A stretch of 64,000 nucleotides of DNA, taken from the NCBI RefSeq assembly GCF_007741475.1, contig NZ_CP036261.1:2418001-2482000 (forward strand). Reading direction: 5' to 3'. Source of the DNA: Rosistilla ulvae. Lineage in GTDB: Bacteria > Planctomycetota > Planctomycetia > Pirellulales > Pirellulaceae. Position numbers and translations under genes: made by a program. The notes beneath the pieces were generated by a model. That model was not told the DNA's origin. It searched no databases and saw nothing but the letters and a program-made list of their open reading frames with translations. Positions 24,145-44,912 of the stretch are shown piece by piece (the stretch's first letter is position 1; each line of letters begins with the position of its first letter).

Positions 24145-25155
24145 ATGCAATGGGACGACTATATTGGCCACGAACAACAGCGGGAATGGTTTGCCACGGC
24201 ACTCCGCAATGGCCGACTGGGGAGCACGTTTCTGTTCGTCGGGCCCGCTTCGATCGGCAAGCAAACCTTCGCCACTTTGTTAGCCAAAACGCTGCTGTGC
24301 ACTACCAATCCGCCCGAACAAATGCAGCCCTGCGGCCACTGTGAAAGCTGTCGACTGGTCGATGCCAAGACACACCCCGATCTGTTGCGGGTTGAAAAAC
24401 CAGCTGACAAGTCGGTGATCCCCGTCGAAAAATTGGTCGGCCCTCGCGAGGCGCGTATGCAGGAGGGATTCTGCCACGACATCCGTCTGCGAGCCTATTA
24501 TGGACGCCGCAAAATTGCGATCCTCGACGATGCCGACCACTTGAACCAAGAGGGGGCCAATTGCCTGCTGAAAACGCTCGAAGAGCCGCCGGTCGGATCG
24601 ATCGTGATCCTAATCGGGACCAGTCTCCAGCGGCAGCTCCCCACGATCCGCAGCCGCGCACAAGTGATTCGGTTTGCCGAACTGACACCTTCCCAAGCCA
24701 AACAATTACTGCAGCGCAGCGAGATCGAAGCGGAAGAGGAAGCGATCGAACAGGCGCTTCAACTGGCCGGCGGCGATCTTTCGCAAGCCGCAGATATCTT
24801 GAACGAAGAATCGCAGGCGTTCCGCGGCGCGCTGGCGGAAATCCTGCAACCGCAAACACCCGCCGCGATCGAACTGGCCAGTCTGGTTTCGGACTACGTT
24901 AACGCCGCCGGCCAAGATGCTTCGGCGCGGCGCGGGCGGATGCGGCAGGTCTTTCGGACGGTGATCGAATTCTATCGAACCCAGATGCGAGACTCCTGCC
25001 AGACGCAGAAAGTATCGGAACCCGCGATGGACGTGACCCTGTACCGGATGGATCGCTGCGTCGAAGCGATCAACCAAGTCGATCGCAATGCGAACCAGCA
25101 GACGCTGGTCGAAAGTTGGTCCTGGGATTTGCAGCGTGGCAAACCGCTGGCCTAA
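24145..25155 (+). CDS. holB: DNA polymerase III delta-prime subunit
   Basis: AAA+ clamp-loader subunit of 336 residues. The N-terminus WDDYIGHEQQREWF is followed by a P-loop-like GPASIGKQTFA (about residue 33), the zinc motif CGHCESCR near 65, the Walker B-like ILDDADHLNQEGANCLLKTLEEPP, and the arginine-finger strand TIRSRAQ. The canonical SRC is SRA here. The start has GGAAGG 8 nt upstream. It follows tmk in a two-gene operon and should act with DnaX and HolA in loading the sliding clamp. Confidence 0.93.
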   Translation: MQWDDYIGHEQQREWFATALRNGRLGSTFLFVGPASIGKQTFATLLAKTLLCTTNPPEQMQPCGHCESCRLVDAKTHPDLLRVEKPADKSVIPVEKLVGPREARMQEGFCHDIRLRAYYGRRKIAILDDADHLNQEGANCLLKTLEEPPVGSIVILIGTSLQRQLPTIRSRAQVIRFAELTPSQAKQLLQRSEIEAEEEAIEQALQLAGGDLSQAADILNEESQAFRGALAEILQPQTPAAIELASLVSDYVNAAGQDASARRGRMRQVFRTVIEFYRTQMRDSCQTQKVSEPAMDVTLYRMDRCVEAINQVDRNANQQTLVESWSWDLQRGKPLA

Positions 25156-40071: not shown

Positions 40072-42099
40072 ATGAAACATCAACAAACCAATCAGAAACG
40101 TGCAAACCAGGGAGACTCTGTGGCACTGGAAATAAATCAATTGCATCAAGGCGATTGTGTCGAAAAGCTGGCGGAGATCGAAGCGGGGACGATCGACCTC
40201 TGTTTCGCCGATCCACCGTTCAACATCGGTTACAAATACGACGTCTACGACGATCGCCAAGACGATGCTGATTATCTCGATTGGTGCCAGCAATGGATGG
40301 CAGGGGTGCATCGTGCGCTCCGCCCCAACGGCACCTTTTGGTTGGCGATCGGCGACGAATACGCGGCGGAACTGAAGGTCCGCGCGACGCGCGAACTCGG
40401 TTTCGTCTGCCGCAGCTGGGTGATCTGGTACTACACCTTTGGCGTGAACTGCAAGAATGGCTTCAGCCGCTCGCACACCCATCTGTTCCACTTTGTCAAA
40501 GATCCCAATTCGTTCACGTTTAATTCCGACGATCCGGCGATCCGCGTCCCGTCGGCGCGGCAGTTGGTCTATGGCGATGGTCGCGCTAATCCCAAGGGCC
40601 GCCTGCCCGATAACACTTGGGTTTTGAGACCTCAGGATCTCCCCGAGGGCTTTCAAAGCGATGGCGATACGTGGTACTTCCCCCGCGTGGCGGGAACCTT
40701 TAAGGAACGCCAAGGTTTCCACGGCTGCCAAATGCCCGAACAGCTGTTGGGCCGAATCGTCCGCGCCTGCTCCAACCCTGGCGACACGGTACTGGATCCG
40801 TTTGCCGGTAGCGGCACCACGCTGGTCGTCGCCAAGAAGCTGGGGCGGCAGTGGTTGGGGGCGGAGCTATCTGAGGAATATGCCACTCGAATCGCTCGAC
40901 GGCTCGACGAGACGCAAATTGGCGATTCGTTGAGTGGTGTCGAAAACCCGCTGACCAGTGTTCCCAACACTGCCAACGGCAAACGCCATCGCGGCGCATC
41001 CAATAGCCAACCGCAGACCAACGGAAAGCCGAAGGTGAAATCGGCGGCGGCATCTAAAAAGAAGACCGCTGTCGCCAAAAAGAAAGCGACCCAAAAGCAG
41101 GCCAAGAAAGTCGCTGCGAAGAAAGCTCGAACCAAGCAGGCCGCGGCGGAGGCTGTGAAGGTGACTAAGTCGACGGGCGCGAAGTCGAAGTCGAAGAAGG
41201 TCGCGGCCAAGGCGACGCCTACGAAAAAAGCAGCGACCAAGCGCGCGACGTCCAAGAAAGGGGCCGTTCCCAAGTCGGCCACCAAGAAGGTGAAGACGAA
41301 AAAGGTCGCCGCCAAGGGGGCGCCGACAGAACCGCCCGCGACCACGAAGCGTTCGGCGAAGAAGAAGAGTCCGACAAAGAAGAAGGTTGCCGTTAAGAAC
41401 GTCGCCGTTAAGAAGACCGCCGTCGTGAAGAAGTCCGCTACGGTGAAGGCAAAGGCGAAGAAAGCCGTCGCATCGACCGCGGTGACGCCGACCGAGCCGA
41501 TTTCAAAAGCAACGGCGACGAAGCGGGGAGCGAAAAAGTCGGCCACCGCAAAGGCGAAGAAGACGCCCGCTCCCAAATCGGTTCCGACCAAAAAGGCTGC
41601 CGTAAAGAAGCGAGCGACGAAAACGGCGACCGCTGCGGTGAAGAAGTCGAAGGGGGCAGCGCCCCAAACGCCACCGACCAAGAAGGTGGCTGTGAAGAAG
41701 GTTGCGGTAAAGAAGCGGACGGCGAAAAAGTCGTCCGCCGCCAAGGTGGCGCCAAAGAAGGTCGCGGCCGAGGCAAAGCCTGTGAAAACGTCCGCTCCCA
41801 AAAAAGCTGCGGTGAAGAAACGGACGGTGAAAAAGTCGGCGGTCGCTAAGGTGACGACGAAGAAGAAAGTGGCTGCCGAGACGACGCCTGCGGAAACGAA
41901 GCCGACGAAGAAACGGCAAACGAAGAAGAAGGGAGCTGCGAAGCGAGTTCCACCCAAGGCCCAGCAAAGCGAAAAACGGCCGGAAAGTGAAACCCCAGCC
42001 GAATCGAAGCCGTTGGCAACGGATCCCGTGGCGACCGAAAGTCCCAAGCCGGTCGAGACGCCACCCAAAGTGCGGCAACCGGAACTGTTTCTGTTTTAA
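40072..42099 (+). CDS. DNA methyltransferase with a histone H1-like Lys/Ala tail
   Basis: A 675-residue protein from the ATG at 40072, or 659 from a GTG at 40120 that has GGGAG 5 nt upstream. Residues about 20-300 are a beta-class DNA methyltransferase: motif [14 protein letters not shown] comes before motif [16 protein letters not shown], indicating N6-adenine (or N4-cytosine) methylation. From about residue 320 to 660 the chain is nearly all Lys, Ala, Val, Thr and Pro in repeats such as [10 protein letters not shown], like eukaryotic H1, AlgP or chlamydial Hc proteins. The two parts share one open frame. No restriction enzyme is adjacent, so it is an orphan methyltransferase. The tail probably holds it on DNA non-specifically. 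Confidence 0.88.
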
Positions 42100-42150: not shown

Positions 42151-43752
42151 TTACGGTTTGGGGGGGCGATCGCCGACGGCCGAATCGAACAGGGTGCGGC
42201 CGACCGACTTCAACAGACTGGTGAATTGCCCGCGGAGCTGATCGATGCGATTGGCGCTGAGTTGTTTGTAGAACGCCTTCAGGATCGCGGCGGCATGCCC
42301 GTGGTCCAGGTTACCGAGCAACGCGGGGACCAAGTTGTCGGCGACGCTCTCCTGATTGGGATGCTGGTCGCCGGTATAGACGCAAACGGTCTGGGCGATC
42401 GCGTCGCCAAACAGCTCGCGACAGTAGGCGACAGCTTGGGCCATCGATTCCTCTTTCAAACAGGTGGGCGTCGTCCAATCGTACGGAGGCGACCATTCGC
42501 GGACTGGCCGCAAGCGATCGACATGCGTCAGCACGGCGATGATCGTTGGCGGTTTTAGATGGGGTTTGTTGCGATAGTGTTTGGTCAATTCCGAGATCGC
42601 TTGCACATCGCTGCGTCGCGCGGCTGAATTCGCTGCCATCACCAACAGCACGATATCGGCCGCTTCGGCCGCTGTTCGAATCTCTTTCGCTTGCTGTCGA
42701 TCGACATCGGCTTCGCTGTAGCCGGGGGTGTCCAACAGGGTGATCGAGTTGTTCACGCCGGGCAATTTATATTCAAACCGGGCGACCGCACGCGTCTCGG
42801 GCAGGAGACTGGTCGCGGCGACATGGTCTTGCATCAGCGCATTGATCAAACTCGACTTGCCCGCTTTGACCTGCCCGATCACCGCGATCGTGGTGCTGAC
42901 GTTTTCGAGTTGTTGGAACGCTTGGACGTCGCCGCCGCTGTGGTGCATCGCCGATGCCAGCGTCCCAAATTGTTGGCGGTAGCGTCGCGAGCCTCCCTTC
43001 AACCGGCCGCTGTACATTTCGATCAGATAATATCCGACCCGCCGCAGATAGGCTTGGTAGAAGACGCCGATCAGTTCGTCTTGCAGATCCAGACCGATCT
43101 GCCCCGCCTGACGCCACAGCGGATAGGTCAGCAGTTTGGCCGGGTTGGCAATCGTCGTGGTCCAGAAACTGGCGATCCGTCCCAATTCCACCGCGCGGGC
43201 GATTCCAGGCAGGGTCTGCAATTGCCCGACCGTCGCGACATTGCTCAACGGCACGTTTTCCAGCACCCAAGCTTCCATGTCCTCCACCGCCAGATGCACG
43301 ACCGCCAGCACTTCGACTAGCGTCAGCCGATGTAATTCGCCCGACGAGCTACCCTGGTGATAATGCCCTGCCAGCCGCTTGGCCATCGATTGGGCATCTT
43401 CCAGATAGCGGTTGGTATCGGCGATGGTCAACCGGTTCATCTCGGGCAGCTCGCTGCGAAACTGCTCGACGACCGCGATCGCCGCAGTATCTTGAGGCGT
43501 CCAAAATTCGGGAGCGGTCAACGGCACACCGGTCGCCGATTCGGATAACCGCCGCGGCTTCCACAACCGCCCCACGATCCAGGCAGCCGCTCCCATCACG
43601 GGCAGCACCCAAGCGAGGCATGCCAACCAACCGGCGCGATAGACCGCCAGGGTGCCGACGACGAGATAGGTCGCCACGGGGAGAAGCCACAGCACAACCA
43701 ACACGATGGCACGAGGACGCAGCAAACGCAGAAACTTCATTTTGCCGTCCAC
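42151..43752 (-). CDS. Membrane-anchored GTPase A
   Basis: A 533-residue protein. Two membrane helices lie at residues about 10-60 (RAIVLVVLWLLPVATYLVVG, then ACLAWVLPVMGAAAWIVG), followed by an all-helical region of about 230 residues. A GTPase domain follows: G1 GQVKAGKSSLINAL near residue 292, a switch region, G3 LLDTPGY, and G4 LTHVDRL. The order resembles YeeP/dynamin-like bacterial GTPases. The first 16 nt overlap the end of GTPase B, so the two genes are translated together. No function is known; membrane remodelling or stress response are possible. Confidence 0.8.
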   Translation of the reverse strand: MDGKMKFLRLLRPRAIVLVVLWLLPVATYLVVGTLAVYRAGWLACLAWVLPVMGAAAWIVGRLWKPRRLSESATGVPLTAPEFWTPQDTAAIAVVEQFRSELPEMNRLTIADTNRYLEDAQSMAKRLAGHYHQGSSSGELHRLTLVEVLAVVHLAVEDMEAWVLENVPLSNVATVGQLQTLPGIARAVELGRIASFWTTTIANPAKLLTYPLWRQAGQIGLDLQDELIGVFYQAYLRRVGYYLIEMYSGRLKGGSRRYRQQFGTLASAMHHSGGDVQAFQQLENVSTTIAVIGQVKAGKSSLINALMQDHVAATSLLPETRAVARFEYKLPGVNNSITLLDTPGYSEADVDRQQAKEIRTAAEAADIVLLVMAANSAARRSDVQAISELTKHYRNKPHLKPPTIIAVLTHVDRLRPVREWSPPYDWTTPTCLKEESMAQAVAYCRELFGDAIAQTVCVYTGDQHPNQESVADNLVPALLGNLDHGHAAAILKAFYKQLSANRIDQLRGQFTSLLKSVGRTLFDSAVGDRPPKP

Positions 43753-44912
43753 AGTTCGTGACCACGTTGCAATTCGTCGGCAAAGATCTCACGCAGTTTG
43801 TCGGTGCTGGGCGTGCGACCATCGCGCAGGTTGGCGAAGTACCAATCCCACGACATCCCCAACGCGTACGTGAAAGCAAACGCGCTGGCGGCTCCCGCGG
43901 CCATGCCGACCCACGGAATCAATTTGAGAACTTCACGCAGCGCCATCCGTGTGGCGATTCGCGAACCAGCGGCGCTGCTGAGCGCGGCCCAGTGCGACGC
44001 CGTCAGTTCTTGTTCGTAGATCTTCCCCAGCCGCATCGCCAGATGCGACTGGATCGCCAGCACGACCGGGATATCAACCCACGGAACCGGGACCGCGCCG
44101 GCCGTCGCGGCCAAACTGCTCGACGCCAACACCTGCCAACGGGCCCGTCGCTGACGCTTGCTGCGATGCCCTTGGTCTTCCATTCCCAACGACAGCAGCG
44201 CCTGGCGGTAGGCGTGCGGCAGGTATTGCAGGATCGCTTGCCGCAACCGCGGTCCGCCAAAATCGGGATCGGCGAACCCGTCTTCCAGCCGCGTCAGATC
44301 GACGGGGACCATCTGGTCGTAGAGCCCCGCAAATTGTTCGGTCTTGCGATCGATCAGGGTTTGCAACGCGTCGGGGATCGGCGACGGCGATTCGTGGTTT
44401 GGATGTTCGGTGGCAAACGGATCGACGCCTTCGGACAGATCGATCTCGCCGGTCGCTTCGTGCAGGCAGGTCAGCAACAGAAGAACCGGGCGCTCGGGTG
44501 TCGATTTGCGAATCTGGCGGAGCGGTTGCAAGATATCAGCCAACGCGTGGTCGGCGACCCGAACCGTCACGATCATCAACTGAGTCGATTCGCTGTATTT
44601 TGCGATGTCGGCAGCGGGATCGTAATCCGCTTCGCCCAAACCGCGCGTATCCAAGAAGGTCAGCAAAGGTTCGACCGGATCGGGAAAATCAAACCGCTGC
44701 GACGACTTGGTTTCGGGCCGAAAGCCCTCGCCGATCGTCGCCTGTTCGGCGCCGGTCAACGAATGGATCACCGAGCTTTTGCCGCTGCCGGTCTTACCAA
44801 ACAACCACAGCACGGGGATTGGGGCGGCGGCCCGCAGCGGATCGATCTGTTGCTGGTATTCACTTTCGGATTGCGGAAGCTTGTTCCGCCAACGCTGCCA
44901 AACTGAGCTCAT
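43737..44912 (-). CDS. GTPase B with DUF697-like membrane domain
   Basis: A 391-residue protein. G1 FGKTGSGKSSVIHSL is at about residues 39-52 and G3 FLDTRGLGEAD near 88. A G4 candidate in the strand LLLLTCLHE is non-canonical. The C-terminal half (about 250-370) has hydrophobic helices (ASSSLAATAGAVPVPWVDIP, KLIPWVGMAAGAASAFAF), the DUF697 type of membrane-associated region. It is the first gene of a two-gene operon with GTPase A (16-nt overlap). The two may form a heterodimeric membrane GTPase. Confidence 0.78.
   Translation of the reverse strand: MSSVWQRWRNKLPQSESEYQQQIDPLRAAAPIPVLWLFGKTGSGKSSVIHSLTGAEQATIGEGFRPETKSSQRFDFPDPVEPLLTFLDTRGLGEADYDPAADIAKYSESTQLMIVTVRVADHALADILQPLRQIRKSTPERPVLLLLTCLHEATGEIDLSEGVDPFATEHPNHESPSPIPDALQTLIDRKTEQFAGLYDQMVPVDLTRLEDGFADPDFGGPRLRQAILQYLPHAYRQALLSLGMEDQGHRSKRQRRARWQVLASSSLAATAGAVPVPWVDIPVVLAIQSHLAMRLGKIYEQELTASHWAALSSAAGSRIATRMALREVLKLIPWVGMAAGAASAFAFTYALGMSWDWYFANLRDGRTPSTDKLREIFADELQRGHELWTAK

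Follow-up and report, generated by a model that had tools for sequence, protein, structure and literature searches.

The gene analysed here encodes an apparently solitary DNA methyltransferase with an extremely lysine-rich tail that ends in a short peptide, RQPELFLF, and peptides of the same type, resembling the binding motif for the beta sliding clamp, recur at the C-termini of many planctomycete orthologues. As working explanation we propose, with a probability of about 0.6, that the protein is a clamp-hooked, replication-associated maintenance methylase equipped with a lysine tether. It would represent a planctomycete orphan N6-adenine methyltransferase, mostly vertically kept and acting beside replication forks, in which the catalytic domain is followed by a flexible basic linker and a C-terminal QxxLF peptide that would dock in the hydrophobic pocket of DnaN. 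By way of clamps that remain on new DNA, the enzyme would accumulate at hemimethylated copies of its presumed target site, and the old methylation pattern would thereby be restored. In the genus studied here the linker would have grown from approximately 35 to approximately 374 residues and would carry an excess of about 100 positive charges, and it may serve as a non-specific DNA tether that provides longer residence and more processive methylation, with the tip still reaching the clamp. For bacterial orphan methylases, diffusion is mostly regarded as the way in which they reach hemimethylated DNA in the wake of the fork. If the proposal is true, docking on the clamp would represent a directed route to such DNA, and planctomycetes would gain a candidate epigenetic maintenance enzyme.

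The window, i.e. the whole stretch of 64,000 nucleotides that was analysed, corresponds to positions 2418001-2482000 of the single 7.48-Mb contig of Rosistilla ulvae (NZ_CP036261.1; genome G000). The initial annotation had described an orphan methyltransferase fused to a long histone-like tail in an open reading frame at 40072-42099 on the forward strand. This frame, 675 aa from the ATG at 40072, was confirmed to be intact and has no internal stops in the sequence and the ORF translation, but the conserved start is probably the GTG at 40120 rather than the ATG, because the frame begins just 8 codons upstream of the homologous valine in the relative G002 (L083) and just 4 codons upstream of it in R. 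maiorica (L003), with no Met in between. The protein would then have 659 aa, of which 285 form the core (net charge -9), 324 the Lys/Ala stretch and 50 the terminal segment. The two other genomes of the genus carry the fused frame as well, with 94% identity over aa 2-374 and 92% over aa 394-675 in G001 and 67% over aa 3-674 in G002, where the two stops in the match sit at both ends of a 660-codon frame. Because both genomes keep it, the fused frame is no assembly error, and the fusion is present in all three same-genus genomes. Moreover, among the loci with a frame read, the flanks of which were not systematically covered, none shows methyltransferase and tail as adjacent separate genes. A scan for promoters and terminators gave a result close to chance. 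The gene contains the following features:

40110-40114, forward strand: putative ribosome-binding site GGGAG, 5 nt before the GTG at 40120 (direct sequence reading)
40120-42099, forward strand: coding sequence of methyltransferase plus tail (open frame; L083 and L003 frames opening just before the homologous valine)
40192-40890, forward strand: N6_N4 methyltransferase domain PF01555, residues 41-273 of the 675-aa ORF (E 1.5e-51)
40207-40221, forward strand: catalytic motif IV, ADPPF (sequence; A30, D31, P32, P33 and F34 invariant in the 20 rows of alignment A2)
40801-40821, forward strand: SAM-binding motif I, FAGSGTT (sequence; F228, G230 and S231 invariant in the 20 rows of A2)
40975-41946, forward strand: expanded Lys/Ala linker of 324 aa, net charge +102, no aromatic residues, predicted to be disordered (sequence, alignment, AlphaFold2)
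41947-42096, forward strand: Pro/Glu-rich terminal segment of 50 aa, net charge -1, bearing the clamp-binding-like peptide (sequence, alignment)
42076-42090, forward strand: beta-clamp-binding-like pentapeptide QPELF within the protein end RQPELFLF (sequence, orthologue comparison)

The assignment of the core to the beta-class methyltransferases in the initial annotation was borne out. The order of motif IV (40207) before motif I (40801, read as DPFAGSGTT) fits this class, DPPF is invariant and motif I nearly invariant in the 20 rows of A2, and the PF01555 match reaches 175.9 bits, above the gathering score of 26.7. N6-methyladenine is the likelier product, because MboIIA, an adenine methylase, is the solved structure that matches best (1g60, E 1.3e-28). 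The protein stayed below the cut-offs of the CcrM equivalog NF050803 (98.5 of 830 bits) and of NF008572 (162 of 292 bits). Near the gene, no restriction endonuclease of a recognisable family was found in Pfam scans of 7 proteins, NCBIfam scans of 6 and PADLOC scans of 4, nor in Pfam scans of 10 further window proteins; the sole ResIII match among the neighbours (2.2e-7) underlies a DEAD-box helicase match of 1e-52. As far as these neighbours extend, the enzyme looks like an orphan methyltransferase, as had been claimed. Methylation motifs have been reported for Kuenenia (PMC5854607) and in a marine methylome study (PMC9516812), and the accessible portions of both papers make no link to the orthologue considered here.

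An orthologue was detected at E<=1e-70 in 55 of 60 related genomes, the own genome included. The exceptions are G009, G020, G029, G035 and G039, and both G029 and G020 are single-contig genomes. An even draw across the phylum gave a match at E<=1e-60 in just 34 of 294 genomes; among the misses listed, G331 belongs to the same family and the others to the same phylum. At least 202 relatives were obtained by the GTDB genome scan, the best 80 of which share 65-80% identity and are named as planctomycetes in 79 cases and as an uncultured bacterium in 1. Phage matches did not attain 60% identity, the ten listed showing 29-36%. The gene looks like an old, mostly vertically inherited and solitary one that is missing from some complete genomes. 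Of the 110 loci collected, 101 distinct ones were retained after removal of 7 duplicates and of L026 and L052, which did not match the motif regex. They comprise 54 loci with tails below 100 aa, 41 with a GIY-YIG domain of ~275 aa, 4 with long Lys tails and 2 that are cut by contig ends. Homologues with such a tail had been suggested as worth seeking in other planctomycetes; one exists in CA13, but the long Lys tail was otherwise found only in the three genomes of the window genus. According to the tree, which is unrooted and whose bootstrap has not settled, the Lys tail requires two changes, both forced by well-supported branches, namely one in the window genus and one in CA13, whose sister R. 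maiorica/G014 is short-tailed; the globular domain requires eight changes in the same tree, at least four of them forced. In nature the tails range from ~10 to 377 residues and thus form a ready series for studying how a histone-like tail contributes to the work of a DNA enzyme.

The tip RQPELFLF was absent from the initial annotation. Ends of the QxxLF, QxxLL and QxxLPGL types are frequent among the short tails (QPELL, QKKLL, QKSLI, QRPLF, QPELF, QPELPGL). A strict motif pattern, written post hoc after inspection of the tails and scored in the last 15 residues, was matched by 23 of the 58 members without GIY-YIG domain (shuffle mean 0.42, maximum 4, 2000 shuffles), and a relaxed pattern by 37 of the 58 compared to 4.85 in shuffles. 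The set was extended by 29 further loci, of which 6 were excluded (5 long, 1 tailless), and 2 earlier tails shorter than 10 aa were also dropped; here, 28 of 79 tails matched the strict pattern (shuffle mean 0.62, maximum 5, 5000 shuffles). As a second control, the strict pattern was scored in 621 other long frames of the same loci, which are mechanical frames and not curated genes, and it was found in 9 of them and in 3 of 102 basic-ended ones. The motif is enriched above both controls. Kinship inflates the motif rate, which decreases from 35% to 24% when near relatives are removed at the 80% cut and to 19% at the 75% cut. When the core identity was capped at 90%, 80% and 75%, the strict pattern was found in 20 of 69, 14 of 58 and 8 of 42 tails, with shuffle means of 0.50, 0.42 and 0.28 and maxima of 4, 3 and 3, respectively (2000 shuffles each); the relaxed pattern without Q gave 34 of 58 at the 80% cap versus 4.98 in shuffles. 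Six of the 28 matches stem from a single group (L017, L124, L125, L127-L129), whose RQKKLL ends are nearly identical. The strict pattern is unmatched in 51 of the 79 tails, many of which end Q-less (SLF, TLF, PALF) or show nothing similar (e.g. L042, L046, L050, L056, L089, L096), and the same-family relative G021 (L091) has a Lys-rich tail of 49 aa from which the tip is absent. The motif also occurs in the linker of 4 of the 41 GIY-YIG members (L064, L071, L079, L109), whereas the regex hit in a fifth member, L018, falls within the domain itself. The tip is the recurring feature and the likelier guide of the enzyme, rather than the long tail.

The consensus for bacterial clamp binding has been given as QL(S/D)LF, with variability (PMC9690074), and the clamp motif of DnaE1/PolC as QxxLF (PMC3919608), in the accessible sections of these papers. 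The DinB little-finger domain PF11799 was not found in G000, G001 and G002 and is present in 6 of 7 other relatives tested. Because DinB is missing in the window genus, the C-terminal part of DnaE, the alpha subunit of DNA polymerase III, was used as in-genome yardstick. It shows the same motif form, QKSLF in G000 and QASLF in G014; the second DnaE-like protein of G000 contains the pattern just as QMSML, at a distance of 463 residues from the point where the frame read ends. The DinB proteins of G006, G014, G008 and G012 display RQKNLF, RQLDLF, RQRSLF and RQMSLF, respectively (4 of 6 loci), and a clear RQxxLF was not found in the two remaining loci, L157 and L158. The long-tailed methyltransferase of CA13 carries QKSLF, which equals the DnaE motif of G000 letter for letter. 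Furthermore, DnaN of G000 can be aligned over its full length with solved clamps (E 2e-35 for 1mmi), and RQPELFLF provides a QxxLF-type peptide, presumably accessible, at the C-terminus of a segment predicted to be without structure. Judged from these sequences, binding of the motif-bearing members to the beta clamp appears quite likely.

The tail from NGKRHRG on comprises 374 aa with 102 Lys and a net charge of +101. Its description as a Lys/Ala repeat applies to the first 324 residues but not to the last 50, which are near neutral and end with the clamp-binding-like tip. Similarly, the claimed likeness to histone H1 or AlgP holds for the composition, but the NCBIfam model NF038053 for H1-like proteins gave 27.4 of 80 bits, below the cut-off. 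The AlphaFold2 model has an ordered core, no helix or strand of at least 4 residues past residue 264, and tail blocks with pLDDT of ~31-51, a low confidence that may partly reflect the thin alignment of 20 sequences; core residues ~139-202 are low too. When the tail was used as query against the own genome, only the tail itself was returned; this search was insensitive, because the family search then found further H1-like stretches, i.e. a small free H1-like protein (L169, C1:86266) and a second Lys/Ala (KKA)-tailed protein (L170, C1:5075705-5076118) whose N-terminal part may bind DNA. Both score below the family cut-off. The candidates L171 and L172 from the same family search translate into a Leu/Lys/Trp repeat in a different frame.

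As the initial annotation suggested, the H1-like tail might keep the enzyme bound to bulk DNA and perhaps compact it; in this reading the terminal peptide would be incidental. The high positive charge, the predicted disorder and the other Lys/Ala stretches in the genome fit such nucleoid tethering, and the Lys columns are conserved, with 88 of 91 unchanged between the tails of G000 and G001 in comparison to 212 of 243 other columns. The lysine repeats of actinobacterial TopA, which are H1-like and stabilise the enzyme on DNA, increasing its processivity and DNA residence according to the available text of PMC7398561, may be regarded as the best functional precedent found for the proposed tether. 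However, a good part of the 54 short-tailed loci retains the terminal motif, and the tails of G000 and G002 are only 50% identical yet both keep RQPELF. Hence, tethering as the sole function of the C-terminus seems improbable to us, though worth serious consideration. DNA or nucleoid tethering via the tail is plausible in view of charge and composition, and as part of the clamp-hooked enzyme we consider a tethering role of the Lys tail somewhat more probable than its absence. The long tail could also be functionless, an ordinary basic linker lengthened by (nearly) neutral expansion of repeats. The CA13 tail is a young tandem repeat (12-base units, 6.8 copies, 97% matches), indels are frequent among the tails of the window genus (44 and 71 gap columns), and most other members without GIY-YIG domain are short-linkered. 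Nevertheless, the array in the window genus is degenerate, with only short patches detected by TRF, and yet the tail is constrained: dN/dS between G000 and G001 amounts to 0.24 in the tail (0.03 in the core), and the Lys number is nearly constant (102 in G000 versus 100 in G002). Neutrality is an unlikely explanation for these features; we rather infer that long basic linkers arise through tandem expansion and that the tail composition in the window genus has since been held by selection.

Two further explanations are both very improbable. The gene could be the remnant of a restriction-modification system, in which a GIY-YIG nuclease remained fused in relatives and was lost by the window lineage. 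Indeed, the C-terminal domain of the 41 fused members matches UvrC GIY-YIG by profile (3.3e-7) and by fold. The domain of L061 (4847-5665) was predicted with pLDDT 93.8; it begins with a helical part and continues with a UvrC-type GIY-YIG fold (best Foldseek E 2.2e-3 with probability 1.00, no match at or below 0.001), and Pfam GIY-YIG was matched at E<=0.1 by 17 of 34 fused members (best 1.3e-6). However, the position of the metal-binding, catalytic Glu is occupied by another residue in 39 of the 41 fused copies (Lys, Gln or Arg in 36), with one gap and one Glu, as counted from one MAFFT alignment in which the contig-end-cut L090 and L101 align poorly. The Glu is kept in 10 of 12 stand-alone relatives and in a UvrC-like control, and the Asn in 39 of the 41 fused copies. 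The restriction-modification reading is weakened because the catalytic Glu is replaced, and the neighbours scanned include no recognised endonuclease. The terminal hydrophobic peptide could, alternatively, be a protease degron that adjusts the amount of enzyme during the cell cycle. Proteolysis does occur in methylases of the cell cycle such as CcrM. However, the motif is often located at least 2 residues from the end, and the residues that follow it, as in QPELFGK and QPELPGLNGSS, argue against a C-terminal degron; the Q three residues before the hydrophobic pair, which is built into the strict pattern, also fits a clamp pocket better.

The fused GIY-YIG domain is probably a non-cleaving DNA-binding module, as suggested by its replaced Glu, and it has no Pfam match in the window protein. 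A planctomycete DNA methyltransferase fused to GIY-YIG was not found in our literature search. A wider picture of planctomycete maintenance methylation, consisting of a clamp-docked orphan adenine methylase, a histone-like tether in one genus and a dead GIY-YIG domain reading DNA structure elsewhere, is a tentative one, to which we would give slightly less than an even chance. Profile A1, made from the fused domain, also detects genes that encode the domain on its own, one in G000 (C1:2104615-2105388, 4.3e-35) and others in several relatives. The stand-alone protein of G000 (L111:2113-3039, reverse strand) keeps the catalytic Glu and begins with an N-terminus that is signal-peptide-like by eye; it would be a candidate exported nuclease. 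Such genes were considered as split partners of the methyltransferase (Rosetta-stone) and dropped, since eight of the proteins start signal-peptide-like by eye (G000, G001, G002, G014, G012, G026, one of G010, and G030) and three have another N-terminus, so that they look like domain paralogues. In L117, L119 and L121 the same helical GIY-YIG domain stands behind a different N-terminal segment (VRVPKTLH...EGTSLNQL), which we take to resemble a ribbon-helix-helix.

With CcrM, YhdJ-type and other solitary beta-class adenine methyltransferases the window protein shares the catalytic domain and the solitary chromosomal gene kept within a bacterial group, whereas it scores far below their equivalog cut-offs and adds the clamp-binding-like tip and the Lys tail. 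The eukaryotic pair DNMT1 and PCNA is unrelated to the bacterial enzyme in enzyme family and clamp. By hypothesis, it is nevertheless alike in bringing a maintenance methylase to new DNA via a clamp peptide, as described in the accessible part of PMC9690074, and differs in that adenine instead of cytosine is the predicted base here and clamp binding is predicted from sequence. Actinobacterial topoisomerase I is likewise a DNA enzyme with an H1-like lysine-repeat tail; it is another enzyme, and the tail of the window protein is placed between the enzyme and the clamp-binding-like tip. The KKA/KKV-type composition is shared with the NF038053 proteins and presumably with AlgP and Hc2, but in contrast to these H1-like proteins the window tail is an enzyme appendage. 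The literature searched, which consisted mostly of titles and abstract openings and included few subscription papers, yielded no description of a clamp-binding motif in a DNA methyltransferase from bacteria.

A tip of similar type was also seen in Planctomycetales bacterium 10988, where a protein that is radical-SAM-like by eye (L050:354 onward, reverse strand) ends with a basic stretch and DQLFLFDLE. In the window, a protein of the DNA polymerase III delta-subunit type (clamp loader; PF13177, 4.8e-39) is encoded at 24145-25155 on the forward strand, ~15 kb upstream of the methyltransferase. Finally, two overlapping GTPase genes (dynamin-like and DUF697) at 42151-44912 on the reverse strand are convergent with the methyltransferase gene and gave weak LeoA/LeoBC matches in PADLOC.
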